From: Planosporangium mesophilum | GTDB lineage: Bacteria > Actinomycetota > Actinomycetes > Mycobacteriales > Micromonosporaceae | DNA: 64,000 bases | Assembly: GCF_016863255.1 (NCBI RefSeq) | Contig: NZ_BOON01000034.1 | Coordinates: 1 to 64,000, forward strand | Direction: 5' to 3' | Shown here: positions 29,161-44,013 of the stretch, piece by piece | Layout of the letters: each line of letters opens with the position of its first letter | How positions within the stretch are numbered: the stretch's first letter is position 1 | Position numbers and translations under genes: made by a program | Notes under the pieces: generated by a model | The model's database searches: none | What the model saw: the letters and a program-made list of their open reading frames with translations, nothing else | What the model was told of the DNA's origin: nothing

Positions 29161-30687
29161 ATGAACAACGGGTGGGTGCTGCCCGACGGAGTGCTGCGTG
29201 ACGCACCCGCGTACACGCCACGCATGCACGAGCTGGCCGACCTCGAGCTGCTGCTCACCGAGGTGTACACGCCGCTCACCGGCTTTCTCGGCCGGGCCGA
29301 CCTGATCAGCGTGGCCCGTACCGGGCGACTCACGGACGGCAGGGCCTGGCCGGTGCCGATCACGCTCGACGTCCCGACCGACCTGCTGCGCGACATCGAC
29401 ATCACCAACCCGCTGCGCCGGGTCCTGATGCTCACCGACACCGAGGGCGCCCCGGTCGCCGCGGTCGACGTCACCGAGGTCTGGGCGACCCGGGACGGCA
29501 TGTGCGGCGTCGCCGGCACGGTGCGCCGCATCGGCGACGGCGGCCACGGCCCGTTCCGGCGGCTGCGCCGCACCCCGGCGGACGTACGGGAGCTCGTGCC
29601 GCCCGGCCGGGTGCTCGGCGTGATCGCCGACCGGCCGCTGCACCGTCCCCAGCTCGCCCAGATCGCGCACGCCGCGCGTACCCTCAACGGCCACCTGCTC
29701 GTCCTGGTGCCGGTCGCCGCGCCCGGCCCCGACGGGCTCGCCCCCGAGCCGCTGATGCGCTGCATCCTGGCCGCGCGGGACCGGATGCCCCCGGTCACGA
29801 TCGTCGCCGTCCCGCTGGTGCCGCACGGCGACGAGGTCCGCGACGCGCTGCTGCGGGCGCGGGTGGCGGCCGCGTACGGCGTCACCCACCTGCTCGCCAC
29901 CGGTACCTCGATGATGTCCGGCGGCCTGCGCGTACTCGTGCCGCGCGAACTGGCCTACGACGGGCGTGACGGGCAGTGGCGCTCGCGCGACGACATCCCG
30001 CCGCGCCACCAACGGCCGCAGCTGACCGCGGCGGAGATCGACGACCTGCTCGACCGGGGTGTCGCCCTGCCCGAGTGGCACACCCCACCGGCGGTCGCCA
30101 AGGAACTCGCCCGGGCCCGCCCGGCGCGCCGCCACCGCGGGCTCGTCGTGTTCTTCACGGGCCTGTCCGGCTCGGGCAAGTCGACCATCGCCCGGGGCGT
30201 CGCGGACGTCCTGAAGGAGACCGGCGAGCGTACGGTCACGCTGCTCGACGGCGACGTGGTACGCCGGCACCTGTCCAAGGGTCTGGGCTTCTCCGCCGCC
30301 GACCGCGACACCAACGTGCGCCGCATCGGTTGGGTGGCCGCCGAGGCCGCCCGGCACGGCGGGGTCGCCCTGTGCTGCCCGATCGCGCCGTACGCGGTGT
30401 CCCGGGCGGCCGCGCGCCGGTTCGCCACCGAGGCCGGGGCCGACTTCGTCCTGGTCCACGTCGCCACCTCGCTGGAGGAGTGCGAGCGGCGCGACCGCAA
30501 GGGCCTGTACGCCAAGGCGCGGGCCGGCGAGATCACCGGGATGACCGGCATCGACGACCCGTACGAGCCGCCGACCGACGCGGACATCGTCATCGACACC
30601 ACGGGCATGAAGATCGGCGAGGCGGTCACCGTCGTGCTGCGCCACCTCGGCGCGAACGGCTGGATCGACCCCCGCCAGCCCGTCTGA
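29161..30687 (+). CDS. APS kinase with an N-terminal degenerate ATP-sulfurylase-like domain
   Basis: This 508-residue two-domain protein has a C-terminal adenylyl-sulfate kinase domain (residues 325-508). It contains P-loop GLSGSGKST, LDGDVVRRHLSKGLGFSAADRD, and KGLYAKARAGEITGMTGIDDPYE, so it should make PAPS from APS. The N-terminal part aligns by layout with ATP sulfurylase (PUA-like start, then a catalytic-like domain). The two nucleotide-binding motifs are not intact: the usual QTRNP is IADRP (LGVIADRPLHRP), and the GRDHAG site reads ATGTSMMSGG. I infer that the sulfurylase activity is lost or changed. The position before the polysaccharide genes suggests PAPS supply for the sulfotransferases. 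Confidence 0.85.
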   Translation: MNNGWVLPDGVLRDAPAYTPRMHELADLELLLTEVYTPLTGFLGRADLISVARTGRLTDGRAWPVPITLDVPTDLLRDIDITNPLRRVLMLTDTEGAPVAAVDVTEVWATRDGMCGVAGTVRRIGDGGHGPFRRLRRTPADVRELVPPGRVLGVIADRPLHRPQLAQIAHAARTLNGHLLVLVPVAAPGPDGLAPEPLMRCILAARDRMPPVTIVAVPLVPHGDEVRDALLRARVAAAYGVTHLLATGTSMMSGGLRVLVPRELAYDGRDGQWRSRDDIPPRHQRPQLTAAEIDDLLDRGVALPEWHTPPAVAKELARARPARRHRGLVVFFTGLSGSGKSTIARGVADVLKETGERTVTLLDGDVVRRHLSKGLGFSAADRDTNVRRIGWVAAEAARHGGVALCCPIAPYAVSRAAARRFATEAGADFVLVHVATSLEECERRDRKGLYAKARAGEITGMTGIDDPYEPPTDADIVIDTTGMKIGEAVTVVLRHLGANGWIDPRQPV

Positions 30688-30692
30688 CCTCC

Positions 30693-30745
30693 CCCGATCC
30701 GGTAGCTCCGACACCGAGTGTGATCTCGGAGCTACTCGAATCGGG
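30693..30745 (+). terminator. Hairpin after the APS kinase gene
   Basis: The arms CCCGAT and GTAGCTCCGA (30693-30710) pair with TCGGAGCTAC and ATCGGG (30727-30745), with a small internal loop. It starts a few bases after the stop codon and separates the kinase gene from the wzz-like gene, so the two may be transcribed separately. Confidence 0.5.
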
Positions 30746-30840
30746 CTGCGCGGAGTTACGTACAGCGGACACGCACGTTAGCCCTACCGGGGGCGCGCGC
30801 CCCGCCGCCGTACAACTCACGCCGAGGGAGCCCCCGCCCG

Positions 30841-32658
30841 ATGGATCAGACGCAGCCGGTTGCAGCCGATTTGTCAGATTTCATGGGTCGGGTGTGGCGC
30901 CACTCATGGGTCGCGGCGCTGACCGTGCTCGCCGGGGTGGGCGCGGCGTACGGGTACACCCAGACCCAGCCCAGGACCTACGAGTCGGCGACCTCGGTCC
31001 TGGTCGAGCCGATCACCGGCCAGGACACCACGGTCGCCGGCGGCCGCACCAGGAGCGACATCAACCTCGACACCGAGGCCCAACTGGTCAGCTCGACGCC
31101 GGTCGCCGCCAACGCGGCGAAGCTGATGAAGAGCACGACCCCGCCCGACCAGCTCGCGGGCGCTGTGAGCGTCACGGTCCCGGCGAACACGTCGGTACTG
31201 GTCATCACGTACTCGGCGAGCACCCCAAGCCAGGCGCAGGCCGCCTCCCACGCCTTCGGGCAGGCGTACCTGGCCACCCGGCAGGAGAGCGCAACCGCCG
31301 AACTGACCAACCAGATGAACAGCGTCAACGGCAAGCTGCGGGAGCTGGGCGGCCAGCTCGCCCGGGTGAACGGGCAGCTCGTCGGGCTGCGCGCGGACAA
31401 CCCGAACCGACCCAACCTGGTCAGCGAGCGGGACACCCTGATCAGCCAGGTCAACGGACTCAACAACCGGCTCAACCAGCTGTCGACGACGACCGTCAAC
31501 CCCGGCCGGATCATCCGCGACGCCAACCTGCCGACGCGGCCGAGCAAGCCGAACGTGCTCGTGAACCTGGCCAGCGGCGCCGCCGTCGGGCTGCTGCTCA
31601 GCGTCGGGTTCGCGCTGCTGCGCGAGCGCCTGGACCGCCGGGTACGCCGCGCCGCCGACCTGGGCCGCCGCACCGACGTGCAGGTACTGGCGACCCTGCC
31701 CAGCGGCGTCAAGCCGGACTTCGACGACGTGTTCGCGCCGTTCGGCGTCGGGGGCCGCGTCTTCCAGCGGCTGCGCAACGAGGTCCTGGCCAGCCTGCCG
31801 GCGCAGGGGACCCGGACGATCGTGGTGACCGGCGCCAGCCGGGGCGCCGCCGCCACCCTGGTCGCGGCGAACCTGGCGGCCGCGTTCGCCCGTACCGGCG
31901 GCGAGACCGTACTGATCAGCGCCCAGCTACCCGACAGCGTCGGCGAGTCCGTACCGGTCACCGGGCTGTTCGACGTGGCGCCGGTACCCGGCCTGTCGGA
32001 CCTGCTGACCCACCGCGCCTCGCTGGCCGAGGCCGCCCAGCGCACGCCGCGCACCCCGGCGCTGCGGGTGATCACCACCGGGAGCACCGCGAGCGCCAAC
32101 GGGCTGCTCCAGTCGCAGTCCCTGCGGGACGCGCTGTCCACGCTGCGCCAGCAGGCGGAGTACGTGGTGATCGAGGCGCCGTCGACCGCGTCCAGCGCCG
32201 ACGCGCAGAGCCTGGCGAGCCTGGCCGACGCGGCGATCCTCGCCGTGGAGCTACGCCGCACCCGGCACGCCCAGGTCGTCGACGCGACCGAGCAGTTGCG
32301 GCGGGTGGGTACGCCGGTGCTCGGCGCCGTGGTCCTGCCGTACCTGGGCCGGCCGGAGCCGGCGACGGCACCGGAGCCCCCGGTCGTCGCGTCGCCCGCG
32401 CCGCTGCCGCCCGCGGCGACCGGCGAGAGCGCACCGCGGGAGGCGGGCGACGACGCGAAGACCCAGGTCCTGGACTCCCCCACCGTCATCTTCCGCCGGA
32501 TCGAGGTGGACGAGGACGACGACGGCGACGTGTTCGCCGACCTCACCGGCGCGGCCGAGCCCCGCAAGGAAGAAACCGTCGGCTCGGCCCGGAAGACCAC
32601 CGCGACCGGCGTGCTGGCCGCCTTCACCGAGGACGGCCCGCTGGACGGCGGACGGTGA
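30841..32658 (+). CDS. Wzz-like chain-length protein with degenerate BY-kinase domain
   Basis: This 605-residue protein has a Wzz N-terminal domain, with membrane helices at about residues 19-38 and 238-258 flanking a periplasmic coiled-coil region. A cytoplasmic domain related to bacterial tyrosine kinases follows (about 280-510), then an acidic tail. Its motifs are decayed. The Walker A reads TGASRGAAATL, lacking the Lys-Ser/Thr. Walker A' is VLISAQL rather than VLLIDADL. Walker B is YVVIEAP rather than YVIIDTP. It is probably not an active kinase but could still set polymer length. The ATG is preceded by GAGGGAG. It is the first gene of the overlapping chain to 39543. Confidence 0.85.
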   Translation: MDQTQPVAADLSDFMGRVWRHSWVAALTVLAGVGAAYGYTQTQPRTYESATSVLVEPITGQDTTVAGGRTRSDINLDTEAQLVSSTPVAANAAKLMKSTTPPDQLAGAVSVTVPANTSVLVITYSASTPSQAQAASHAFGQAYLATRQESATAELTNQMNSVNGKLRELGGQLARVNGQLVGLRADNPNRPNLVSERDTLISQVNGLNNRLNQLSTTTVNPGRIIRDANLPTRPSKPNVLVNLASGAAVGLLLSVGFALLRERLDRRVRRAADLGRRTDVQVLATLPSGVKPDFDDVFAPFGVGGRVFQRLRNEVLASLPAQGTRTIVVTGASRGAAATLVAANLAAAFARTGGETVLISAQLPDSVGESVPVTGLFDVAPVPGLSDLLTHRASLAEAAQRTPRTPALRVITTGSTASANGLLQSQSLRDALSTLRQQAEYVVIEAPSTASSADAQSLASLADAAILAVELRRTRHAQVVDATEQLRRVGTPVLGAVVLPYLGRPEPATAPEPPVVASPAPLPPAATGESAPREAGDDAKTQVLDSPTVIFRRIEVDEDDDGDVFADLTGAAEPRKEETVGSARKTTATGVLAAFTEDGPLDGGR

Positions 32659-34064
32659 CCGTCGTCCACGACCGACCCCTTGATCGTCACGACGCGCCCG
32701 ACGTCGTGGCCTCCGGGGACACGCGGGACCACGACTTCGGCGACGCTGTGCCGACCAGGGCAACGGCGCTGCCGAGCTGGCCGGTGACGGCGCTGCTCGC
32801 GGCGTACCCGATCTGGTGGGCCCTCGGGCTCGGAGTACTGATCTTCCCGCTGCTCGCCGTACCCATGGTGTACCTGCTGGTGCGGCAGCGGCGGCGGGTG
32901 ACGTTGCCACCCGGCTTCGGGCTCTGGCTGCTGTTCCTCGCGATCGTGGTGATCAGCACCGCCGCGCTCGGGGCGAACCCGGCGGGCACCGTGCCGGGTA
33001 CGGTCGGCGGCCGCCTGGTCGGCGTCGGGTACCGGTTCGTCAGCTACCTCGCCCTGACCGTGCTGCTGGTGTACCTCGGCAACGTCGACCGGGCCCGGCT
33101 CCCCCAGCACAGGCTGGTCCGGCTGCTCGCCTGGCTGTTCGTGGTGACGGTCGCCGGTGGCCTGCTCGGCGTGTTCGCCGGACGGTTCGAGTTCAACTCG
33201 GCGATCGAACTGCTGCTGCCGCACCACTGGCGGGAGAACTCGTTCGTACGCTCGCTGGTGCACCCCGCGTCGGCCCAGGTCATGGACCTGCTCGGCGCCG
33301 AGAGGCCGCGCCCCGCCGCGCCGTGGGGGTACACCAACACCTGGGGCAACAACGTCTGCCTGCTCGTGGTCTGGTTCGTGGTCTGGGCTCTGGCCGGCCG
33401 CAGGAGCCGGCGACTGTTCGGGCTGGCCTGCCTGGCGGTCGCGGTCGTGCCGGTCGTCCACTCCCTCAACCGGGGGCTGTGGATCGGGCTCGGCGTGATC
33501 GTCGGGTACGTGGCGCTGCGGCTGGCCCGCCACGGCCGCGTCGCGGCGCTCTGCGCGGTCGGGGTGGCCGCGACGCTGCTGGCCGGCGCGCTGGTGTTCA
33601 CCCCGCTCGGCGGCATCGTCGACCAGCGGCTGAACAACGGCAGGTCCAACGGGGTACGGATGTACCTCACCGACCGGTCGCTCCAGGGGCTGTCGGAGTC
33701 CCCGCTGATCGGGTTCGGCTCCACCCGCAGCACCCAGGGCGGCCGCAACTCGATCACGGTCGGCGAGAGCGCGAACTGCAAGCGCTGCGGCAACTTCACC
33801 GTCGGCGGCAACGGGCAGCTGTGGCAGTTGCTCTTCGCACACGGCCTGCTCGGCACCGCGGCCTACCTGGGCTTCCTGCTCTACGGCCTGTGGCGGTTCC
33901 GGACGGACACCTCCCCGATCGGCCTGGCCGCCGGCGCCGCGATCGTCAGCACGTTCGCCGCGATGCTCTGGTACAACGCGCTGGTCACCCCGCTGGCGTT
34001 CACGTTCTGCGCGTTCGCCCTGCTGTGGCGCAACGCCGAGGTACGGCAGGTGGCCGCCCGATGA
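32655..34064 (+). CDS. O-antigen ligase/Wzy polymerase-like membrane protein
   Basis: This 469-residue polytopic protein has about ten to twelve hydrophobic helices after a 35-residue soluble start. A large extracytoplasmic loop near residues 335-390 contains two close cysteines (NCKRCGNF). The segment NRGLWIGLGVI resembles the conserved Arg region of the O-antigen ligase/polymerase (Wzy_C) family. Such proteins join lipid-linked repeat units into long polysaccharide outside the membrane. The GTG start overlaps the end of the wzz-like gene by four bases (GTGA), and the ATG of the next gene overlaps its own stop (ATGA). Confidence 0.8.
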   Translation: MTVVHDRPLDRHDAPDVVASGDTRDHDFGDAVPTRATALPSWPVTALLAAYPIWWALGLGVLIFPLLAVPMVYLLVRQRRRVTLPPGFGLWLLFLAIVVISTAALGANPAGTVPGTVGGRLVGVGYRFVSYLALTVLLVYLGNVDRARLPQHRLVRLLAWLFVVTVAGGLLGVFAGRFEFNSAIELLLPHHWRENSFVRSLVHPASAQVMDLLGAERPRPAAPWGYTNTWGNNVCLLVVWFVVWALAGRRSRRLFGLACLAVAVVPVVHSLNRGLWIGLGVIVGYVALRLARHGRVAALCAVGVAATLLAGALVFTPLGGIVDQRLNNGRSNGVRMYLTDRSLQGLSESPLIGFGSTRSTQGGRNSITVGESANCKRCGNFTVGGNGQLWQLLFAHGLLGTAAYLGFLLYGLWRFRTDTSPIGLAAGAAIVSTFAAMLWYNALVTPLAFTFCAFALLWRNAEVRQVAAR

Positions 34065-35269
34065 GCCCGATGCACACCGCCCCGGCCGCGCTGACCGGCG
34101 ACGACGAGCAACTGCGGGCGCAGTACCTGGCCGAGGTGCTGTCGGTGCTCTATCCGGACAGCGGTCCGGCGGCCGTCGAGTACCTGGTGGTGCCGAACGC
34201 CCGCAAGCCCCGACTGCTGGTACCGGCGGACAGCCGGCGGGTCGCCGCCGCGGCCGTACGCCGGTACGCGGAGCCGACCACAAGAACGGGCCGCCTGGGG
34301 CGTACCGCAATCGTGGCGGCGCTGCGGACCGGCGCGTCGGCGCTGCTGCTGCGCGACCGGGTACGGGTCCAGGCCGGCACCGACAGCTTCCCGGCCCATC
34401 TCGCCGGGGTCCTCGGCGACGGCCTGGCCCTGTCGGTCCACATCGGACCGGCCCGGGCCAACCGCAAGCCGGTGCTCCAGGTCTTCGACGCCCGGGGCCA
34501 CACCGTCGCGTTCGTCAAGCTCGGCACGAACCCGCTGACCCGCGGCCTGGTACGGGCCGAGGCCGCCGCCCTCACCACGCTCGGCCACGCCGGGCTGCGG
34601 TCGATCACCGTACCGAAGGTGCTGCACACCGGGCAGTGGCACGACCACGAGGTCCTCGTCCTGGAGGCGCTGCCGACATGGCGCAAGCGGGTGCCGCTGA
34701 CCGCGCCCCGGCTGGTGACCGCGATGACGGAGCTGGCCGGCTGCTGCGGTACCCGGCGCAGCGGGCTGCGCGGCAGCGGGTACGCGAGCCGGCTGCGGAC
34801 CCGGCTGGAGGCGGTCGCCGACTCCCCCGACGGCCGGCAGTTGGCCGGCGCCGCCGAGCGGGTCCTCGACGCGGCCGGAGAACTGCGGCTGGACTTCGGC
34901 GCCTGGCACGGCGACTGGGCGCCGTGGAACATGGCCACCCTCGACGACACGCTGCTGGTCTGGGACTGGGAGCGGTTCACTCCGGGCGTACCGGCGGGCT
35001 TCGACGCCCTGCACCACGACCTGCAGCGACGGCTGGCCGCCGGCACGGACGCCCGCGCCGCGGTCGACGCGATGCTCGGACGCGCCGGCGAGCTGTTGCG
35101 GCCGTTCGGCGTCCGGGAGGAGCCCGCCGCCGAGGCGATCGCCCTGCTGTACCTGATCGACCTGGCCACCCGGTACGTCGCCGACCGGCAGGCCGAGTCC
35201 GGAGCCCGGCTCGGCGTGCTCGGCAGATGGCTGCTGCCCGCCCTTCTCACCCGCGTGGAGGAACTATGA
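34061..35269 (+). CDS. Aminoglycoside phosphotransferase-fold kinase
   Basis: This 402-residue protein contains a protein-kinase-like phosphotransferase domain. The catalytic motif FGAWHGDWAPWNM near residue 285 matches the HGDxxxxN loop of the APH family, and VWDWERF is the following metal-binding Asp region. An N-terminal nucleotide-binding lobe precedes it (AFVKLG with the Lys). Family members phosphorylate small molecules, including sugars. In a Wzx/Wzy-type cluster it may phosphorylate a sugar of the polymer or its precursor; that is inference. Its start and end overlap the neighbours by four bases each. Confidence 0.75.
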   Translation: MSPMHTAPAALTGDDEQLRAQYLAEVLSVLYPDSGPAAVEYLVVPNARKPRLLVPADSRRVAAAAVRRYAEPTTRTGRLGRTAIVAALRTGASALLLRDRVRVQAGTDSFPAHLAGVLGDGLALSVHIGPARANRKPVLQVFDARGHTVAFVKLGTNPLTRGLVRAEAAALTTLGHAGLRSITVPKVLHTGQWHDHEVLVLEALPTWRKRVPLTAPRLVTAMTELAGCCGTRRSGLRGSGYASRLRTRLEAVADSPDGRQLAGAAERVLDAAGELRLDFGAWHGDWAPWNMATLDDTLLVWDWERFTPGVPAGFDALHHDLQRRLAAGTDARAAVDAMLGRAGELLRPFGVREEPAAEAIALLYLIDLATRYVADRQAESGARLGVLGRWLLPALLTRVEEL

Positions 35270-36189
35270 AGTCCGGAAACCTGTCCCTTCAGCGGGGCCG
35301 GCAGGCCGCGAGACCGAAGACGTCGTGGCGGTCGAACGTTCCCGCCCCGGTCAAGCGGATCGTCCACATCGGATCACGTACCTACGGGCGGCTCACCGCG
35401 GAGCGGCGGGTGCTCCCGTCGTTCCTGCTGAGCGGCGGGCAGCGGTGCGGTACGACCTCGCTGTACCGGGCGCTCTCGCAGCACCCGGCCGTGTGCAAGC
35501 CGGTGCTGCACAAGGGCGTGCACTACTTCGACGTCAACTACGACCGGGGTCCGCACTGGTACCGGGCGCACTTCCCGTCGTACCGCCAGGTCGACCGGGT
35601 CTTCGAGGAGGTCGGCGTGCCGGCGCAGGCCTTCGAGTCCAGCCCGTACTACCTGTACCACCCGCACGCCGCCGCCCGGATCGCCGCCGACCTGCCGGGC
35701 GCCAAGCTGATCGTCCTGGTCCGCGACCCGGTCGAGCGGGCGGCCTCCCAGCACGCCCACGAGGTGGCGCGCGGGTTCGAATGGGAGCCGTCGTTCGAGC
35801 GGGCGCTGCTGCTGGAGGCGTCGCGGCTGCAGGGGGTACCGGAGCGGATGCTGTCCGACCCGTACCACTACAGCTTCGCCCACCAGCACCACGCGTACCT
35901 CGACCGCGGTGCGTACGCCGACCACCTGGACCGGCTGGCGGCCGAAGTCGGGCGGGAACGCATCCTCGTGGTGGACAGCGAGCGGTTCTTCGCCGACCCG
36001 GAGCCGGTGTTCGACGAGGTGATCGACTTCCTCGGCCTGCCGAGGATGGGGTACCCGCTCTTCGACCGCCACAACGCCCGGAGCCGGCAGCCGATGGACC
36101 CCGAGCTGCGGGAGCGGCTGACTGCGCACTTCGCGCCGTACGACGCGCGGCTGCGCCAGTGGCTGGGGCGCGATCCGTCGTGGCGCTAG
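35266..36189 (+). CDS. Sulfotransferase (first of two)
   Basis: This 307-residue protein has the two PAPS-binding motifs of cytosolic-type and heparan N-sulfotransferase-like enzymes. The 5'-phosphosulfate loop is SGGQRCGTTSLYRAL near residue 55, and the 3'-phosphate motif is LIVLVRDPVERAASQHAHE near residue 150. A conserved Lys-His segment (KPVLHKGVHYFD) lies between. No signal peptide is seen, so it should act on a cytoplasmic or lipid-linked acceptor. The ATG overlaps the end of the preceding kinase gene (ATGA). Sulfation of the polymer repeat unit is inferred from the operon. Confidence 0.88.
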   Translation: MKSGNLSLQRGRQAARPKTSWRSNVPAPVKRIVHIGSRTYGRLTAERRVLPSFLLSGGQRCGTTSLYRALSQHPAVCKPVLHKGVHYFDVNYDRGPHWYRAHFPSYRQVDRVFEEVGVPAQAFESSPYYLYHPHAAARIAADLPGAKLIVLVRDPVERAASQHAHEVARGFEWEPSFERALLLEASRLQGVPERMLSDPYHYSFAHQHHAYLDRGAYADHLDRLAAEVGRERILVVDSERFFADPEPVFDEVIDFLGLPRMGYPLFDRHNARSRQPMDPELRERLTAHFAPYDARLRQWLGRDPSWR

Positions 36190-37697
36190 TGGTCACCGCG
36201 CCGGCCACGCAGGCGGGGGCCCGACCGGTGCGCGGCGTCGCGCCCGGTGGGCCCATGCGTGGCGTGGCGCGCGGCGGGCTGGCCAACCTCGCCGGCAGCG
36301 CCTTCACCGGCGCCGCCGGGCTCGGTACGACCTGGCTGGTCGCGCACGGCCTCGGCGCGCACGGCGCCGGCGGCTTCTTCACCGCCACGGCAGTGTTCGT
36401 CGTCGCGACCGGTGTCGCGAAGCTCGGCACCCAGACCAGTCTCGTGTACTGGCCGGCGCGGCTGCGCGCGCTCGGTACGCCCGAACTGGTCGGCCGCTGC
36501 CTGCGGATCGGGCTGGTACCGGTCGCGGTCGCCTCGGTGCTCACCGGCGCCGCGCTGTGGCAGGCCGGCGGCCTGGTCGCCGTGCTCGCGCCGGTGCTGC
36601 CGGCGGCGGCGCTGTCCGACGCGGTGCTCGCCGCGACCCGCGGGTACCGGTCGATGCGCCCCACCGTCGGGTACGACCGCATCCTGCGGCCGGCCCTACA
36701 ACTCGCCGGCCTGGGCACGCTGTGGCTGGTCCACGGATCGCCGGAGGCGTTCGCGCTGGCGTGGGCGCTGCCCTACGTACCGACGCTGGCCCTGGGGGTC
36801 CGGGCGCTGCGGGCGCTCGCCGGCCACTCCGCCGCGGCGCCGGCGGATCCCGGCGGGTTCACCGCGCGCGCGTTCTGGGAGTTCAGCGCGCCCCGGGCGC
36901 TGGCCGGCGTGGCCCAACTGGCGCTGCAGCGCGTCGACGTCGTGCTCGTCGCCGCGCTCGCCGGGCTGCCGGCGGCGGCGCTGTACACCGTCGCCGGCCG
37001 GTTCGTCATCGCCGGCCAGTTCGTCAACCAGGCGATCTCGCAGGCGGTACAGCCCCGGCTGGCCGAGAGCCTGGCGACCGGGGACGCCGAGGTGGCGCGG
37101 ACGCTCTACCAGCGGGCGACGTGCTGGCTGGTGCTCGCCACCTGGCCGCTGTACCTGCTGGTCGCCGGGTACGCGCCGGTCTACCTCGCGCTGTTCGGCG
37201 GGCACTACGCCGGCGCCGCGACGATCACCGCCGTCCTGGCGGCCACGATGCTCGTCGCCACCGCCTGCGGCATGGTCGACATGGTCCTCGCCATGGCCGG
37301 CCGGACCCGCTGGAACCTGGGCAACGTCGTCGCAGCGCTGGCCGTGACGGTCGTCGCGGACGTCACGCTCATCCCCCGGTACGGCGCGCTGGGCGCGGCG
37401 CTCGGGCTCGCCGCCGCCGTGCTCACCAACAACCTGCTGCCGCTGGCCCAGATCGGGTACGCGCTGCGCCTGCACCCGTTCGGCGCCGGTACCCGGGTGG
37501 CCGGCCTGCTCGCGGTCGCCTGCTTCGGCGTACCCGCGCTTGTGACCCGCATCGTGGTGGGTGACCGGCCGACGGTCCTCGCCGCGGCCGGCGCCGCCGT
37601 CACGGTGGCCGGCGCGGTCGGCTACGTCGGCGCGGCGTACCCGCTGCGCCGCCCGCTCGGGCTGTTGTTCCCGGGCCCCGGAAAGGAGAAATCGTGA
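36180..37697 (+). CDS. Wzx-like polysaccharide flippase
   Basis: This protein of about 505 residues has roughly twelve to fourteen hydrophobic helices in the pattern of the MATE/MVF flippase superfamily. Clusters of Ala, Leu and Val are separated by short basic loops, and the C-terminal half carries GRFVIAGQFVNQAISQAVQPRL, a typical Wzx stretch. It is expected to move a lipid-linked repeat unit across the membrane for polymerisation. Two GTG starts are possible, at 36180 and 36189, overlapping the sulfotransferase gene by 10 or 1 bases; I give the first because GGGGCG precedes it. The stop overlaps the methyltransferase start (GTGA). Confidence 0.82.
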   Translation: MALVVTAPATQAGARPVRGVAPGGPMRGVARGGLANLAGSAFTGAAGLGTTWLVAHGLGAHGAGGFFTATAVFVVATGVAKLGTQTSLVYWPARLRALGTPELVGRCLRIGLVPVAVASVLTGAALWQAGGLVAVLAPVLPAAALSDAVLAATRGYRSMRPTVGYDRILRPALQLAGLGTLWLVHGSPEAFALAWALPYVPTLALGVRALRALAGHSAAAPADPGGFTARAFWEFSAPRALAGVAQLALQRVDVVLVAALAGLPAAALYTVAGRFVIAGQFVNQAISQAVQPRLAESLATGDAEVARTLYQRATCWLVLATWPLYLLVAGYAPVYLALFGGHYAGAATITAVLAATMLVATACGMVDMVLAMAGRTRWNLGNVVAALAVTVVADVTLIPRYGALGAALGLAAAVLTNNLLPLAQIGYALRLHPFGAGTRVAGLLAVACFGVPALVTRIVVGDRPTVLAAAGAAVTVAGAVGYVGAAYPLRRPLGLLFPGPGKEKS

Positions 37698-38497
37698 GGA
37701 CCGACTACGCCGAAGTCTTTCTCGACGACGCCGCCGTCGAGCGGTACGAGGAGGTCATGTACGCGCCCGACACGTACTCCTCGGCGGTCAGCGCCCGGCA
37801 GCGGACGTACCTGCGTGACCTCGCCCGCCGGGGGTTCCCGCACCGGCGGGCGGTGCAGCACGACTTCGCCTGCGGCACCGGCCGGGCGATCAAGCTGCTG
37901 CAGGGGGCGGTACGGGCGGCGCACGGCTACGACACGTCACCGGCGATGCTGGCCCGTGCCCGCGAGGCCGGCCTGTACGCCAGGCTGCACGCCATCGAGG
38001 CCGACGGCCCGCTGCCGCGCCCCGCGACGACCGGCGCCCCCGCCCTGGTGACGGTGTTCCGGCTGCTGCTCAACGTGCCGGACGAGGTTCGCGACCGGGC
38101 GGTCGAGTTCGCCGCCTCGGTGCTGCCGGATCCGTCGTCCGGCCTGCTCGTCATCGAGAACCACGGCAACCGGCGTTCGCTGCGGCACCTCGGCGCCGGC
38201 CGGCACGCCGGCGACCCGTGGTTCGCCGAGCTGTCCCACGACCAGGTGCGGACGCTGCTGGCCCGGCACGGCTTCGAGATCGTCGAACGGCGCGGCTTCG
38301 CGATCTTCCCGCCGGGGGCGTACCGCGGTCGCCGGCTGCGCCGCCTCGCCCGGTGGGTGGACGACCTGGCCGCGCGGTCACCGCTGCTGGCCGGGGTCTG
38401 CACCGACGTCCTGTACGTGGCCCGCCGCATGCCCCGCCGGTACGCCCCCGACGCGGCGCTCACGCAACTGGACGCGATCTGCGAGGAGGACCGGTGA
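37694..38497 (+). CDS. Class I SAM-dependent methyltransferase
   Basis: This 267-residue cytoplasmic protein has a SAM-binding motif I (HDFACGTGRAIKLLQGAV, near residue 57), followed by the acidic residue region GYDTSPAML and a motif IV-like RLLLNVPDE. It resembles methyltransferases that act on small molecules or sugars in glycan clusters. The acceptor is unknown; an O-methylated sugar is plausible. It is joined to its neighbours by 4-base overlaps on both sides. Confidence 0.75.
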   Translation: MRTDYAEVFLDDAAVERYEEVMYAPDTYSSAVSARQRTYLRDLARRGFPHRRAVQHDFACGTGRAIKLLQGAVRAAHGYDTSPAMLARAREAGLYARLHAIEADGPLPRPATTGAPALVTVFRLLLNVPDEVRDRAVEFAASVLPDPSSGLLVIENHGNRRSLRHLGAGRHAGDPWFAELSHDQVRTLLARHGFEIVERRGFAIFPPGAYRGRRLRRLARWVDDLAARSPLLAGVCTDVLYVARRMPRRYAPDAALTQLDAICEEDR

Positions 38498-39543
38498 CGC
38501 TCAGACGCTTCGGGGTGGTCGGCTGGACGCTGGTCCTCGCCTTCACCGCGCTGATGGTCCTGACCACCTGCGGCCGGCCCACGCCGCAGCAACCGGTACC
38601 ACCGGCGCCGCCGCCGCTGCCTGACAGCCCGACCGGCAGCCCGGCGGCGATCGCGACGGCCACCGGCCCGTTCGAGTCGGGGCCGGTCACGGCGCCGGCC
38701 TCCGGTGCGTACCTGGGCGCGTGGGTACGCCCGGCACAGTTGACCCAGCCGGAGCGGGTGGCGGCGGTGTCCACGCTGGAGCGGCAGCTCGGGCGGAAGC
38801 TGGACATCGTCAACACGTACCGCCGCTTCGACCAGGACCTGCTCACCTCCTCCGACCTCACGTTCACCGAGCGCGGGTCGACCATGATGATCAGTTGGGC
38901 CGGCGGCGACACCCGGGCCATCACCGCGGGCCAGTACGACCAGGTCATCCGTACCGGCGCGCGGGCCGTGAAGGCGTACGGCAAGCCGCTGCTGCTGCGC
39001 TTCCGGTGGGAGATGGACCGGCCGAACATGGCCGCGGCGATGTGGTCGCCGGCCGACTACATCGCCGCGTGGAAGCACGTGCGCTCGATCTTCACGGCCG
39101 AGGGCGCCGCCAACGTGTCCTGGGTGTGGTGCCCCACCAACGAGGGGTTCGTCGGTGGGTACGCGCAGCCGTTCTACCCCGGCGACGACCAGGTCGACTG
39201 GGTCTGCGTCGACGTGTACGCCGGGACCAGGTTCGCGCCCCTCGGTGAGCTGCTCACGCCCTTTCTGCGCTGGTCGGCGCAGCACCCGACCAAGCCGATC
39301 ATGATTGGTGAGTTCGGGGTCGCGCGAGCCTGGGGCCCGGCCCAGCGGGCCGCCTGGCTGCGCGACGCCGCCGAAGTGTTCAAGGCGAACCCGCAGATCC
39401 GGGCCGCGCTCTACTTCGAGTCCGATCCGGACAACGGCAACGGCACGCCCACCAACGAGTTCCGGGTCTCCGACGACCCGCCCGCGCTGGCCGCCTTCAC
39501 CGAGCTGGCCCGCGAGCCGTACTTCAACCCGCCGCGTCGCTGA
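38494..39543 (+). CDS. GH26-like glycosidase, putative lipoprotein
   Basis: This 349-residue exported protein starts with a signal peptide (hydrophobic core VVGWTLVLAFTALMVL, then LTTC as a possible lipobox near residue 27) and a Pro-rich linker. A TIM-barrel-like domain follows. RFRWEMDRPN carries the Glu in the position of the acid/base of family 26 mannanases, and PIMIGEFGVA carries the second Glu in the nucleophile position. I infer an endoglycanase that trims, releases or edits the polymer. The start overlaps the methyltransferase stop (GTGA) and the gene ends the operon, six bases before the convergent gene. Confidence 0.7.
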   Translation: MTLRRFGVVGWTLVLAFTALMVLTTCGRPTPQQPVPPAPPPLPDSPTGSPAAIATATGPFESGPVTAPASGAYLGAWVRPAQLTQPERVAAVSTLERQLGRKLDIVNTYRRFDQDLLTSSDLTFTERGSTMMISWAGGDTRAITAGQYDQVIRTGARAVKAYGKPLLLRFRWEMDRPNMAAAMWSPADYIAAWKHVRSIFTAEGAANVSWVWCPTNEGFVGGYAQPFYPGDDQVDWVCVDVYAGTRFAPLGELLTPFLRWSAQHPTKPIMIGEFGVARAWGPAQRAAWLRDAAEVFKANPQIRAALYFESDPDNGNGTPTNEFRVSDDPPALAAFTELAREPYFNPPRR

Positions 39544-39549
39544 CCCGGT

Positions 39550-40326
39550 TCATTTCGAGCGCTCGGTCCTCATCGGTGACGTCGCGATCTGGCCGTGCTG
39601 GCAGACGTCGTCCACACTCGCCTTGACGGTGAGCTGCGTCGTCTCGTCCGGCGGCGTCACGACCAGGCCGACCGCCGCCGGCTGGCACGGAAAGGCCTCG
39701 TCGTCGGCGGGGACATGGGCGTAGTGGATCGTCGCCCACGCGGTCTGGCCAGGCGCCAGCGTGATGAGCGTGGGCTCGGCCTGGTCGCGACTGACCTTGG
39801 TGGGCAGCCACTTGCCGGACGAGTCCACGAGCGCCATGCCCGGGAAGCCGTAGATCCGGCACGGGTGGGACGCGCGGTTGGTCAGGCCGAGGTCGAGGTA
39901 GACCGAGCCGGCGGCCACCCCGCCCGCGGACTCGTCGAGCTGTCCCGCCAGATCACCGGTGTGGCACCGCCGCGGCTGCCCGGAGCCGGTGTCCTCCGCC
40001 CTCGCCGCCGGGGCCCCCGGGGTGGCCGGGGTGCCCGACCCGGCTTCGGCCGGGGCCGGCGCGGCCACCGTCGACGGATCCGACGCCGTGTTGCCGGCGC
40101 CGACGGAGGCGGGCGGCGGGCCGCCGGACCCGGCGAGCCGCACGCCGAGCCAGGTACCACCCACCGCGAGCAGCGCGATCGTGAAGACTCCCGCCGCCGC
40201 GGCGCGCACCCGTCGCCGATGGCGTACCGTCCCGCGCACCGCCTCGGCACCGGCGGGTGCGGCCGAGGCCGAGGCCTCCTCCTCCACCTCGTGGAACAGT
40301 CGGCCCAGTTCATCGTCCTGATTCAC
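39550..40326 (-). CDS. Single-pass membrane protein with DUF4232 domain, partner of the sigma factor
   Basis: This 258-residue protein has a short cytoplasmic N-terminus of about 46 residues (acidic, MNQDDELGRLFHEVEE), one membrane helix (near residues 47-66), a Pro/Ala/Gly linker, and an exported DUF4232 domain with CRIYGFPGMALVD and four Cys. This layout is like membrane anti-sigma factors, and the gene overlaps the sigma factor gene by four bases (GTGA). A role in controlling the sigma factor is inferred from that. The extracytoplasmic ligand is unknown. Confidence 0.72.
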   Translation of the reverse strand: MNQDDELGRLFHEVEEEASASAAPAGAEAVRGTVRHRRRVRAAAAGVFTIALLAVGGTWLGVRLAGSGGPPPASVGAGNTASDPSTVAAPAPAEAGSGTPATPGAPAARAEDTGSGQPRRCHTGDLAGQLDESAGGVAAGSVYLDLGLTNRASHPCRIYGFPGMALVDSSGKWLPTKVSRDQAEPTLITLAPGQTAWATIHYAHVPADDEAFPCQPAAVGLVVTPPDETTQLTVKASVDDVCQHGQIATSPMRTERSK

Positions 40327-40799
40327 CGTGACACCTCCTCTGCTAGCTGCGTCATCAACGTGGTACGACCGCGGTGCAGCCACGACCGCACGGTGCTCTC
40401 CGCGGCGCCGCACTCCTGCGCCAACTCCGCCGTGGTCAGTCCGGCGAGGTAGTGCAGGATCAAGGCCCGCCGCTGCGCGACCGGTAACCGGGCCAGCGCC
40501 GCGACCAGCGCGACCCGGTCGACGCTCGGTCCCTCGGCGTACTCGGGCCGCTGGCCGGCGAGGAATCTGGCCGCCGTCCGCATCCGGCGCCACCGGCTCA
40601 TCGCCAGGTTCCACGACACCCGTCGCACCCAGGCCAGCGGGTCTTCATACTCGGCTAGCCGCGGCCAGCGCGACCACGCGCGGCAGAACGCCTCCTGCAC
40701 GATGTCCTGCGCCTCGGCCAGGTCGCCGGTCGAGGCGTACAACTGCGCGGTGAGCGCGCGGACGTGCGCGGCGTAGAACCCGTCGAAGTCCTCGGTCAT
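40323..40799 (-). CDS. ECF sigma factor (SigE family)
   Basis: This 158-residue sigma factor has region 2 (YAAHVRALTAQLYASTGDLAEAQDIVQEAFCRAWSRW split over residues 8-45) and region 4 (ALARLPVAQRRALILHYLAG, then a helix-turn-helix TTAELAQECGAAESTVRSWL). Its size and motifs match the actinobacterial SigE50-like group. The coupled DUF4232 gene probably encodes its membrane partner. The ATG at 40797-40799 is chosen because it begins region 2 at the usual distance. Its targets cannot be known here, but its location between the polysaccharide genes suggests one. Confidence 0.88.
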   Translation of the reverse strand: MTEDFDGFYAAHVRALTAQLYASTGDLAEAQDIVQEAFCRAWSRWPRLAEYEDPLAWVRRVSWNLAMSRWRRMRTAARFLAGQRPEYAEGPSVDRVALVAALARLPVAQRRALILHYLAGLTTAELAQECGAAESTVRSWLHRGRTTLMTQLAEEVSR

Positions 40800-40911
40800 G
40801 GCTGCCTCCCCCGCCGTCCTCCCCGAGAAGAACACGCGTGGGCGGGTCTGTTCGTCGCACCGGGCCGATGCCCGATTTCGCGGTATACGCGACAGATGGA
40901 CGGAGGACGAT

Positions 40912-40952
40912 CGCCGGTAGCGCCACCGGCGGACTTCCTGGCGCTACCGGCG
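40912..40952. terminator. Hairpin at the end of the WecG/TagA gene
   Basis: CGCCGGTAGCGCCA (40912-40925) and TGGCGCTACCGGCG (40939-40952) pair perfectly with a 13-base loop. The TAG of the glycosyltransferase gene (complement of 40944-40946) is inside the right arm. Confidence 0.65.
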
Positions 40953-41717
40953 GCGGACCGCCGCGCGGACGAGCAGGCCCATCGCGTACGGGGCGTCGTG
41001 GCGCAGGTACCGCTCCGCCAGCCGGCGGGGCTCGCGGGACAGCCGGTGTGCCCACTCCAGACCGGAGCGCTGCATCCACTCCGGAGCGCGGGCCCGGTCA
41101 CCGGCCAGGAAGTCGATCGCGCCGCCGCAGCCGAGCAGCCACGCGCCGGGCAGGTCGCCGCGCAGCCGGTCGGCCAGCCGTTCCTGCCTGGGACAGCCCA
41201 GTCCGATGTAGACCACGTCCGGCTTGGCCTCGACCAGCTCGCGGCAGACGGCGTCGAGCGTGGCGGGGTCCCGGTCGAACCCGTACCGGGGGCTGGCGTG
41301 GCCGGCGATGCGCAGCCCCGGGTACGCCCGGACGAGCGCCTTGGCCGCCCGGTGCGAGCCCTCCAGCCGGCCGAAGAAGGACGGCGCCCCGCCGAGCAGG
41401 TACAGCGACCGGCCGTCGGCCGCAAGGCCCGCGGCGATCGACCAGACCAGGCTCGCCCCGGCCACCCGCTCCGGTACCGGCGCGCGGGCCAGCCGGGACG
41501 CCCAGACCAGGGGCGCCCCGTCGGCGACCACCAGCTCGGCGGTGGCGAGCTGGCGGCGCAGGTCCTCGTCGCGCCGGGCCAGCCGCAGGATGTCGACGTT
41601 CGGCGTGGCGATCAGCCCGCCGCTGCCCCGATCGAGGCTGTCGCGCACGTACGCGACGACCTCGGCCTCGGTACGGCGGTCGATCCCGACGCCGTCGAGT
41701 ACGACCCGTTGGTCCAT
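40944..41717 (-). CDS. WecG/TagA/CpsF family glycosyltransferase
   Basis: This 257-residue GT26 glycosyltransferase has the conserved TPNVDIL near residue 38, ADGAPLVWASRL near 67 and YIGLGCPRQE near 165. Members move a sugar such as N-acetylmannosaminuronic acid or N-acetylmannosamine onto a lipid-linked sugar in enterobacterial common antigen and teichoic acid synthesis. The final segment GLLVRAAVRRR is basic. The ATG at 41715-41717 is chosen because it begins MDQRVVLDGVGIDRRTEAE, a family-typical start. It is divergent from the second sulfotransferase gene. Confidence 0.85.
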   Translation of the reverse strand: MDQRVVLDGVGIDRRTEAEVVAYVRDSLDRGSGGLIATPNVDILRLARRDEDLRRQLATAELVVADGAPLVWASRLARAPVPERVAGASLVWSIAAGLAADGRSLYLLGGAPSFFGRLEGSHRAAKALVRAYPGLRIAGHASPRYGFDRDPATLDAVCRELVEAKPDVVYIGLGCPRQERLADRLRGDLPGAWLLGCGGAIDFLAGDRARAPEWMQRSGLEWAHRLSREPRRLAERYLRHDAPYAMGLLVRAAVRRR

Positions 41718-41774
41718 CTCGTCTCCACCCCGCGTACCCGTCGTTATACCTACAGAACGAGATAAGGGGTGCAA
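41718..41774. promoter_or_regulatory. Divergent promoter region of the WecG/TagA gene and the second sulfotransferase
   Basis: Fifty-seven bases separate the two start codons. AAGGGG at 41763-41769 is the ribosome-binding site of the rightward gene. TATACC at 41746-41751 is AT-rich and may be a -10 box, but no clear -35 is visible. Confidence 0.3.
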
Positions 41775-42701
41775 GTGGTACGCGTTCTTTTCCTGGGTGG
41801 CCTCGGTCGTAGCGGCACCACGCTGCTCGAACGCCTGCTGGGTGAGCTTCCCGGCGTCTGTCCGCTCGGCGAGGTCGTACACCTCTGGGACCGCGACATC
41901 CGCGACGGCGAGCGGTGTGGCTGCGACAAGCCGTTCCACGACTGCACCTTCTGGCGCGGCGTCGGCGAGGAGGCGTTCGGCGGCTGGCACAACGTGGACG
42001 TCGACCGGATCCTCGCGCTGCGCCGATCGGTCGAGCGCACCCGGCACGTCCCGCGACTGGCGGCCGGCGCCGTCACCTGCGACCTCGTCGAGTACGCCAA
42101 CTACTACGCGCGCCTGTACCGCGCCGCCGCCGAGATGTCCGGCGCCCGGGTGCTCGTCGACTCCTCCAAGCACGCCGCGCTCGCGTACTGCCTGCGCCAG
42201 GCGGCCGGCATCGACCTGCGCGTGGTGCACATGGTGCGGGACAGCCGGGGCGTGGCGTACTCCTGGACCAAGCGGGTGAGCCGGCCCGAGGCGGACGGGG
42301 CGTGCGAGATGACGCGCTACCGGCCGGGCCGCTCCGCCCTGCTCTGGAACGCCCACAACACCGCCTTCGGCCTGCTGGGCCGCTGCGGGGTACCGGTGCG
42401 GCGGGTCCGGTACGAGGAGCTGCTGGCCGACCCGCGCGGCACGGTCCGGGCGGTCGCTTCGTACGCGGGACTCGACGCCGAGGCCCTCGATCTGTCGTTC
42501 CTGCGCAGCGATCCGGACGGTACCGAGCACGCGGACCTGCGCTCCCGGCACAGCGCCGCCGGCAACCCGATGCGCTTCACCGTCGGCGCCGTACCGCTGC
42601 GGCACGATGAGGCGTGGCGCAACGAACTGCGCCCCCGCCAGCGCCGGCTGGTCGGGGCGCTGACCGCGCCGCTGCTGGGCGCGTACGGGTACCGGTCGTG
42701 A
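41775..42701 (+). CDS. Sulfotransferase (second of two)
   Basis: This 308-residue sulfotransferase has a PAPS-binding loop LGRSGTTLLERLLG near residue 10 and a 3'-phosphate motif VVHMVRDSRGVAYSW near residue 155. It is not closely similar to the first sulfotransferase: the motif context and length differ, so two different acceptor sites are likely. Eight Cys, four of them in GERCGCDKPFHDC, may bind metal. I chose the GTG at 41775 because AAGGGG lies five bases ahead. The gene overlaps the GT2 gene by four bases (GTGA). Confidence 0.87.
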   Translation: MVRVLFLGGLGRSGTTLLERLLGELPGVCPLGEVVHLWDRDIRDGERCGCDKPFHDCTFWRGVGEEAFGGWHNVDVDRILALRRSVERTRHVPRLAAGAVTCDLVEYANYYARLYRAAAEMSGARVLVDSSKHAALAYCLRQAAGIDLRVVHMVRDSRGVAYSWTKRVSRPEADGACEMTRYRPGRSALLWNAHNTAFGLLGRCGVPVRRVRYEELLADPRGTVRAVASYAGLDAEALDLSFLRSDPDGTEHADLRSRHSAAGNPMRFTVGAVPLRHDEAWRNELRPRQRRLVGALTAPLLGAYGYRS

Positions 42702-43609
42702 CCGGTGACTGGCCGTCGGTCGGCGTAGTGATTCCGACCCGCGACCGGCTCCAGCTCCTGCGGCGCGCCGTCGACGCGGTGCTCGCCCAGGACTACCCCG
42801 GCCCGCTGCGCGTCGTGGTCGTGTTCGACCAGTCCCCCGTTTCCGAGTTGGACCGGGCGGTCGAGGTGGTGGCGAACTCCCGTACCCCCGGCCTCGCCGG
42901 CGCCCGCAACACCGGCATCGCGGCGCTCGACACCGACCTGGTCGCCTTCTGCGACGACGACGACGTGTGGGCGCCGGGCAAGCTGACCCGGCAGGTCGAG
43001 GCCCTCACCGCCCGGCCCGGCGCCGAGTTCGCCACCTGCGCGATCGAGGTCGAGTACGGCGGCCGGGTCACCCCCCGACTGGCCGGCGCGTCCCTGGTGG
43101 GCGTGGACGACCTGGCGCGCTCGCGGATGGCGATGCTGCACGCGTCGACGTTCCTGGCCCGCCGGCGGTCGCTCGTGGACGTACCCGACGGGATCGGGCC
43201 GGTGGCCGAGGACGCGCCGGGCTCCCAGAACGAGGACTGGGACCTGCTGCTGCGGGCTGCCCGGCGGGCGCCGGTCGTGCACGTGGACGAGCCGCTGGTA
43301 CGGGTGCTGTGGGGTCGGACGTCGCAGTTCGCGTACGAGTACGCCACGAAGGTCTCGTCGCTGCGCTGGATGCTGGACCGCCACCCGGAGATCCGGGCCT
43401 GCCGGGCCGGCGCCGCCCGGGTGTACGGGCAGCTGGCCTGCTGGTCCGCCGCGACCGGGAACCGGCGCGACGCCTGGCACTGGACGCGTGCGGCGCTGCG
43501 CTCCAACTGGCGCGAACCGCGCGCCGCCATCGCCCTCGCCGCCGTCACCGGCGCGGTACGCGTCGAGCACGTCCTGGGTGTGCTGCACCAGCGCGGCCGG
43601 GGAATCTGA
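42698..43609 (+). CDS. Family 2 glycosyltransferase
   Basis: This 303-residue GT-A glycosyltransferase begins PSVGVVIPTRDRLQLLRRAV. The GT2 acidic metal site is FCDDDDVWAPGKL near residue 90, and the later ED (AEDAPGSQNEDWDLLLRAA) is like the catalytic region. It presumably transfers a sugar onto the lipid-linked repeat unit, acting in the cytoplasm. It is coupled to the second sulfotransferase gene, and two hairpins follow it before icd. Confidence 0.87.
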   Translation: MTGDWPSVGVVIPTRDRLQLLRRAVDAVLAQDYPGPLRVVVVFDQSPVSELDRAVEVVANSRTPGLAGARNTGIAALDTDLVAFCDDDDVWAPGKLTRQVEALTARPGAEFATCAIEVEYGGRVTPRLAGASLVGVDDLARSRMAMLHASTFLARRRSLVDVPDGIGPVAEDAPGSQNEDWDLLLRAARRAPVVHVDEPLVRVLWGRTSQFAYEYATKVSSLRWMLDRHPEIRACRAGAARVYGQLACWSAATGNRRDAWHWTRAALRSNWREPRAAIALAAVTGAVRVEHVLGVLHQRGRGI

Positions 43610-43981: not shown

Positions 43982-44013
43982 GCGCCTAGAAGGCACCAGC
44001 CGTCGCTAGGCGC
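43982..44013 (-). terminator. Terminator of icd
   Basis: The icd stop codon is inside the hairpin: GCGCCTAG (43982-43989) pairs with CTAGGCGC (44006-44013). On the minus strand a T-rich stretch CTTTTTGA follows about ten bases later, so this could be an intrinsic terminator. Confidence 0.65.

Follow-up and report, generated by a model that had tools for sequence, protein, structure and literature searches.

The DNA analysed here (the window) is a stretch of 64,000 nucleotides from Planosporangium mesophilum, a member of the Micromonosporaceae (contig NZ_BOON01000034.1, or C34; 6.62-Mb genome, 103 contigs; G+C 72%). Between ppc (26234-29041) and icd (44006-45217) it carries a set of genes for polysaccharide assembly, sulfate transfer and sulfate activation, which most likely is a genuine conserved sulfated-polysaccharide locus of the kind published as wps-1 of Actinoplanes missouriensis. 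We consider it highly probable that the locus and a second site in the same genome form one pathway for a sulfated heteropolysaccharide of the Wzx/Wzy type. All genes named in a preliminary description of the window were found close to where it had placed them (open reading frames, Pfam, NCBIfam), and the locus as observed there was confirmed as real. The genes, with their wps-1 counterparts in brackets, are the following.

29161..30687, + strand: degenerate sulfurylase-like domain fused to a predicted adenosine 5'-phosphosulfate (APS) kinase; Pfam APS_kinase, PUA_2, ATP-sulfurylase (AMIS_7390)
30841..32658, + strand: predicted Wzz/polysaccharide co-polymerase with cytoplasmic kinase-like domain; Pfam Wzz (WpsK)
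32655..34064, + strand: Wzy-like polymerase; Pfam Wzy_C below cut-off (WpsJ)
34061..35269, + strand: putative small-molecule kinase of the APH/fructosamine-kinase fold; Pfam APH just below cut-off, structural model (WpsI)
35266..36189, + strand: predicted sulfotransferase 1 (ST1), heparan-sulfate-sulfotransferase type; Pfam Sulfotransfer_1 (WpsH)
36189..37697 (start possibly 36180-36255), + strand: predicted Wzx flippase; predicted structure (WpsG)
37694..38497, + strand: predicted S-adenosylmethionine-dependent methyltransferase; Pfam Methyltransf_25, 1e-6 (WpsF)
38494..39543, + strand: GH26-like lipoprotein; Pfam Glyco_hydro_26 just below cut-off (WpsE)
39550..40835, - strand: extracytoplasmic function (ECF) sigma factor and DUF4232 protein, outside the conserved locus; Pfam
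40944..41717, - strand: predicted WecG/TagA/CpsF glycosyltransferase; Pfam, 6e-51 (WpsC)
41775..42701, + strand: predicted sulfotransferase 2 (ST2); Pfam Sulfotransfer_3, 6.4e-14 (WpsB)
42698..43609, + strand: predicted GT2 glycosyltransferase; Pfam, 1.1e-19 (WpsA)

The genes from wzz to GH26 had been described as overlapping one another, and overlaps of 4 bp were indeed found at five junctions (wzz/wzy, wzy/kinase, kinase/ST1, wzx/methyltransferase and methyltransferase/GH26), and also at ST2/GT2, whereas the ST1/wzx junction varies with the chosen start codon (36180, 36189 or later).

Tezuka and Ohnishi (11 June 2026, PMC13390465) described wps-1 as AMIS_7280-AMIS_7380 plus AMIS_7390. In the portion of their report that is used here, the order is GT2, sulfotransferase, WecG, DUF4262, GH26, methyltransferase, Wzx, sulfotransferase, kinase, Wzy and Wzz, after which comes the sulfurylase/APS-kinase gene AMIS_7390. 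Matched by content and order, the window has an equal set of predicted functions in reversed order, including the wps-1-type extras (ST2, GT2, WecG, methyltransferase and GH26), and differs in carrying the ECF sigma/DUF4232 pair where wps-1 has wpsD (DUF4262). The same portion presents wps-1 as a probable sulfated-exopolysaccharide cluster that is required for sporangium formation, its authors stating that sulfation awaits verification. Deletion of wpsA, C, G, H, I, J or K gave squashed sporangia and deletion of wpsE or wpsF partial or other defects, and wpsD was dispensable. These sporangium phenotypes come from A. missouriensis, whereas the window locus is known through its genes. The sulfated Wzx/Wzy polymer of the preliminary description is still the best reading and agrees with the published cluster, although the sulfate is chemically unproven.

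Polymer-assembly genes and sulfotransferases

The Wzz protein was matched by Pfam Wzz (9.9e-8) and by the NCBIfam model eps_fam (1.3e-24, under its cut-off). Its cytoplasmic domain resembles that of a bacterial tyrosine kinase (BY-kinase) with a degenerate P-loop, in which the usual lysine is absent. Wzy matched PF04932 (Wzy_C) at 3.7e-5, with 24.0 bits against a cut-off of 31.7, and its position and conservation fit this assignment; the kinase matched Pfam APH at 8.6e-5 (22.8 bits, cut-off 23.2) and the GH26 protein Pfam Glyco_hydro_26 at 7.8e-4 (19.3 bits, cut-off 20.2). Because these Pfam scores fall just below their cut-offs, the names of the three proteins lean also on context. The structural model of the kinase (predicted local distance difference test, pLDDT, 88.3) had fructosamine-3-kinase (FN3K) and aminoglycoside phosphotransferases as top folds in the PDB, with modest template-modelling (TM) scores, and the residues of its HGD...N and DWE motifs were invariant or nearly so across 29 aligned rows.

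For Wzx, a Pfam scan at E 0.01 gave no match; the earlier Wzx-like call is backed instead by an AlphaFold2 model (pLDDT 90.3), which matched MurJ (best E 1.4e-7) and WzxE (TM 0.77 by target length). Judged from this model, the protein is a flippase of the multidrug/oligosaccharidyl-lipid/polysaccharide (MOP) type. ST1 matched Pfam Sulfotransfer_1 (1.2e-14) and its PDB relatives include heparan sulfate 3-O-sulfotransferases. Both sulfotransferases have family matches with conserved motifs for the binding of 3'-phosphoadenosine 5'-phosphosulfate (PAPS), the PAPS-loop of ST1 being kept, and are predicted to be PAPS-dependent carbohydrate sulfotransferases.

Conservation of the cluster in the family

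The family sample consisted of 121 genomes from 44 genera, in which ST1 was searched at E 1e-25 and Wzy at E 1e-20. Matches were found for the APS kinase fusion in 120/121 genomes, for ST1 in 101/121 and for Wzy in 94/121. The Wzy matches comprised a main type (at least 48% identity) in 76/121 genomes and 29/44 genera, a second type (38-47% identity) in 13 genomes and a third type (<38%) in 22 genomes (23 matches); where a match was split, its secondary pieces were not counted (APS kinase in six genomes, wzy in G043 and G086). A same-strand ST1 no more than 6 kb from wzy was found in 75/76 cases of the main type, 13/13 of the second and 22/23 of the third; the one main-type case that lacks it comes from a draft genome in which ST1 gave no match. 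The distance from the APS kinase to the main-type wzy was at most 10 kb in 54/76 genomes and at most 30 kb in 60/76; in the remaining 16/76 it was farther away on the same contig (nine genomes) or on another contig (seven). The linkage in relatives that had been proposed as a check was thus found for ST1, and for the APS kinase only in part.

Gene order was compared in loci of other genera that had been chosen by wzy alone, 28 in all; 26 of them covered the full 20 kb, each from a different genus. The core wzz-wzy-kinase-ST1-wzx had an identical order and strand in 26/26 full loci, a conservation that exceeds chance. In the same 26 loci wecG was present in 25, ST2 in 24, GT2 in 23, the methyltransferase in 22 and the APS kinase in 20; an ortholog of GH26 (at least 45% identity) was found in 14/26 and a more distant GH26-like gene in 22/26.

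These data bear on two other views of the product. That the sulfotransferases act on another molecule, such as a lipid or a small molecule, and that the polymer is made without sulfate, appears very unlikely to us. Sulfation of the polymer is indeed predicted from the genes alone, and deletion of wpsB, the counterpart of ST2, had a mild effect, with normal-looking sporangia that released about ten-fold fewer spores. However, ST1 stays close to wzy in all three cluster types and resembles heparan-sulfate sulfotransferases, and deletion of its counterpart resulted in squashed sporangia, the same phenotype as deletion of wzx or wzy (both phenotypes as given in the used portion of PMC13390465).

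A sulfated glycopolymer that is anchored to the wall, and not a free exopolysaccharide, is possible, if on balance unlikely. It would fit the near-constant WecG/TagA-family transferase and the APH-fold kinase found throughout the core, two proteins that may be linked to wall anchoring. By contrast, Wzz and Wzy genes typically belong to exopolysaccharide and capsule synthesis, and no anchoring ligase was identified, although no search was aimed at one.

The ECF sigma factor and DUF4232 protein had been counted among the components of the locus, which was not borne out: neither was present in the 28 main loci of other genera, and a function of the pair as locus regulator was rejected. Among three congeners (tblastn) the ECF gene was found in one and DUF4232 in two, and at the 39550-40835 site the pair was seen only within the genus of the window. 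In all three congeners ppc, APS kinase, wecG and icd are kept in unchanged order, but the polymer genes are absent from this site, with no match >120 bp to 30.7-39.6 kb or 41.8-43.7 kb of the window. In these close relatives the proposed linkage check therefore found the APS kinase kept and wzy and ST1 missing at the cut-offs used. The missing stretches end near gene borders. Because of these borders, and because wecG, which elsewhere belongs to the conserved cluster, was kept in 3/3 congeners, loss in this genus is favoured over acquisition, although the tree does not separate gain from loss.

Several further arrangements were observed in the family. Two additional paralogous Wzy-sulfotransferase cluster types exist, represented by L069, L070, L071, L080 and L081 (second type) and by L072-L079 and L082 (third type); in G101 (L078) a gene 59% like the ST1 of the window lies about 9 kb from the third-type ST1. 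Genome G021 (L068) is without wzy or ST1, yet has ST2 and GT2 directly after the APS kinase, a remnant that differs from the wecG remnant of the congeners. Six genomes of genus g34 (G034, G060, G079, G092, G104 and G120; L064, L065) carry an ST1-like gene (53-55%) at most about 2 kb from the APS kinase, with no wzy nearby. Single in-frame stops occur in some homologues (G050, G016, G038, G009, G031 and G044) and may reflect a pseudogene or an assembly error.

Sulfate activation and the candidate priming transferase

The first gene of the locus, originally named an APS kinase, does encode this domain, but fused to a sulfurylase-like domain (Pfam APS_kinase, PF01583, 2.1e-56; PUA_2; ATP-sulfurylase, 2e-11). 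It is the only full-length PF01583 match of the genome, a second match covering 42/152 positions with 22.8 bits. In comparison to 1m8p, the sulfurylase motifs QTRN and HRAH are replaced by IADR and HRPQ, the latter being invariant in 29/29 rows, whereas the P-loop residues of the kinase are kept; the equivalog NF004040 (NCBIfam) scored 408 bits against a cut-off of 669. A working sulfurylase, and with it a bifunctional PAPS synthase, was rejected on account of the degenerate motifs. The best PDB relative is 3cr8, the two-domain APS kinase of Thiobacillus denitrificans, for which a lack of sulfurylase activity is cited in passages of PMC13213808, and the residues suggest that the window protein is of the same type, with an inactive sulfurylase half and an intact kinase. 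An inactive sulfurylase-like domain fused to an active APS kinase has likewise been described, in the sources used, for T. denitrificans and Entamoeba histolytica; the fusion studied here differs from these in being located beside a polysaccharide cluster and in its presence in nearly every genome of one family.

The cysD and cysN genes are present at a separate site (contig C6). CysH contains the cysteine pairs (CC...C..C) of the iron-sulfur APS-reductase signature and was aligned with 7lhr, presumably a mycobacterial APS reductase; PF01507 matched only CysH and CysD in the genome. Since CysDN is separate, CysH is of the APS-reductase type and the sulfurylase half is degenerate, cysteine synthesis should not need the fusion, which is probably the PAPS source for sulfation. 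A comparable division is described in passages of PMC4373884 for mycobacterial CysD/CysNC, where APS is either reduced by CysH or phosphorylated to PAPS for sulfation, as proposed here; in mycobacteria, however, the APS kinase is fused to CysN, whereas that of the window, encoded away from cysN, is joined to a sulfurylase domain predicted to be dead.

The published wording implies that this gene is a housekeeping enzyme of sulfate assimilation and merely a neighbour of the cluster. In the used portion of PMC13390465, AMIS_7390 was tied to sulfur amino acid synthesis, and its transcript lacked the induction seen for the cluster on day 3. The fusion occurs also in 18 genomes that gave no match to wzy or to ST1 at the cut-offs, it cannot serve the window locus alone because it is present in 120/121 genomes, and it is remote from wzy in the 16 genomes mentioned above. 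Nevertheless, we regard a housekeeping enzyme that is only a neighbour of the cluster as unlikely in view of the degenerate sulfurylase half, the separate CysDN and the type of CysH, and of the deletion of AMIS_7390, which "unexpectedly" caused severe damage of the sporangia with no difference on agar by eye (same portion). A role as PAPS source would explain this published defect. A general PAPS supply that also serves the cluster fits both sides.

No priming glycosyl-1-phosphate transferase was found within the window locus, and the expectation that it is encoded elsewhere was supported by a candidate on contig C6. Here a PF02397 protein is encoded directly before an inositol-phosphatase-family gene, cysD and cysN; the inositol-phosphatase gene is CysQ-like by position and family. 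With WbaP as its nearest solved relative by sequence (3e-50), the PF02397 protein is a strong candidate for the priming transferase of the locus. It shares PF02397 with the undecaprenyl-phosphate hexose-1-phosphate transferases of the WbaP type, and is distinguished by its position with cysQ-cysD-cysN. Besides this protein, PF02397 has three strong matches and one weak match in the genome. Another PF02397 sugar transferase (G000:C6:71408-71932) is located about 15 kb from the priming gene and possibly belongs to a further polysaccharide cluster.

The cysD neighbourhood was compared in 41 genomes (40 fetched and that of the window) from 39/44 genera; the other five (g3, g6, g38, g41 and g43) were excluded, mostly because their contigs were short. 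The priming gene was found upstream of cysD, in the same orientation, in 26/27 genomes with the main cluster versus 0/14 without it (Fisher 4e-10), usually in the order priming gene, then cysQ-cysD-cysN; its absence from the cluster-negative genomes holds at the cysD site only. CysQ was found at cysD in 26/27 positive and 12/14 negative genomes, and cysD in 115/121 genomes of the family. In 16 genomes from seven genera cysD was located within 60 kb of a wzy, where a rough calculation gave about two expected, and in G012, G035 and G062 (three genera) the priming/cys block adjoins GT2-ST2-wecG. This physical linkage is independent support for the association of the priming gene.

The WbaP-like gene could also prime another polymer, and would then co-occur with the main cluster as a result of shared losses in the same clades. 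Genome G030 has the cluster and no priming gene at cysD, three more strong PF02397 genes are at hand, and the association was not significant in tree-based tests on independent pairs, which correct for relatedness: two well-supported (starred) of 11 pairs on the CysN+CysD tree (p 0.5), and three well-supported (starred) of six pairs (p 0.25) on the CysN+CysD+APS-kinase tree, which contained the 21/41 genomes with the APS kinase in the fetched locus. All well-supported pairs tested, however, went in the same direction or showed no difference, none being opposite, and physical joining of the gene to the cluster was seen in three of the family's genera as well as in family f18 and Modestobacter. 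We therefore hold a separate function of the WbaP-like gene to be doubtful.

The proposed pathway and its distribution

In the proposed pathway, CysD-CysN would make APS, which the two-domain kinase of the window, with its catalytically dead sulfurylase half, would convert to PAPS. The WbaP-like hexose-1-phosphate transferase would begin the repeat unit on undecaprenyl phosphate, the WecG-type and GT2 transferases would lengthen it, and the two sulfotransferases, the methyltransferase and the APH-fold kinase would decorate it in the cytoplasm, CysQ clearing 3'-phosphoadenosine 5'-phosphate (PAP), the by-product of the sulfotransferases. Wzx would then flip the unit, Wzy polymerise it and Wzz set the length, and the GH26 lipoprotein may trim or anchor the polymer. 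By analogy with A. missouriensis, the pathway probably yields a spore or sporangium matrix or another surface polymer.

Several points weigh against this pathway. Besides those given with the alternatives above, the polymer genes are absent in the congeners, cysD is present in nearly all genomes of the family (115/121), the ECF/DUF4232 pair lies outside the conserved locus, and the enzyme activities and the biological role, as well as sulfation, are read from gene content. In addition, a zoospore-specific role was rejected as exclusive, as 51/89 flagellin-negative genomes carry the main cluster. Counted by genome, the main cluster was present in 26/32 genomes positive for flagellin (PF00669) versus these 51/89 (p 0.018, with G063 taken as cluster-positive on ST1 alone, giving 77 genomes and not 76); counted by genus it was 8/10 versus 21/34 (p 0.45), and for any wzy cluster 27/32 versus 68/89 (p 0.45).

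In a class-wide sample of 296 genomes, ST1 matches were found in 51, of which 48 are outside the family of the window and belong to 11 families. Among 40 neighbourhoods fetched from 37 genomes, wzy, ST1 and wzx occurred together in 31. Family f18 contributed 17 of the 40 loci, with cysD in ten and the priming gene in six. Four of them (L163, L165, L166 and L170) have a one-strand run of the priming transferase gene (pHPT), cysQ, cysD, cysN, ST2, GT2 and wecG, which faces wzz-wzy-kinase-ST1-wzx and has the two-domain APS kinase at the far end; L163 gave no wzx match. The cluster is present also in Modestobacter sp. DSM 44400 (L087), where the priming gene follows GT2, beside GT2/ST2, and an APS kinase is nearby. 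Within the family of the window, homologues of the priming gene were found in 5/14 fetched loci of the second and third types (L069, L073, L074, L077 and L081).

Taken further, and with only slightly better than even confidence, a modular system for sulfated glycans, ancient and with a sulfate economy of its own, may be common to actinomycetes of at least 12 families. One operon would encode the priming transferase, the PAP phosphatase, ATP sulfurylase and a first sulfotransferase; opposite it, the polymerisation operon would include a second sulfotransferase, of the heparan-sulfate type, together with a two-domain APS kinase dedicated to the system. The family of the window would have split this system into two or three sites that are lost or kept as a unit. 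A sulfated capsule and its gene cluster have been described, in the part of PMC11641403 used here, also for Vibrio sp. KMM 8419, a bacterium that is likewise non-cyanobacterial, but Gram-negative.

The kind of cluster is already in print (2026); new are the priming/sulfate-activation half, the PAPS reading and the family-wide conservation counts. The open-licence literature, which leaves most subscription papers outside, yielded no earlier account of the priming/sulfate-activation half or the PAPS reading, and the main text of PMC13390465, as used here, contains neither the word priming nor the word PAPS. The published cluster left two puzzles, namely the severity of the AMIS_7390 deletion and the start of the repeat unit, a point on which its authors are silent; for these we propose the AMIS_7390-type gene as PAPS source and the WbaP-like gene beside cysD as initiating enzyme. 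As the cluster occurs in 29/44 genera and relatives of its core in at least 11 further families, many of them without flagellin, sulfated polymers may be common in actinomycetes, beyond those that form zoospores. If the wider system exists as outlined, genes of cysteine biosynthesis would double as part of a developmental polysaccharide pathway.

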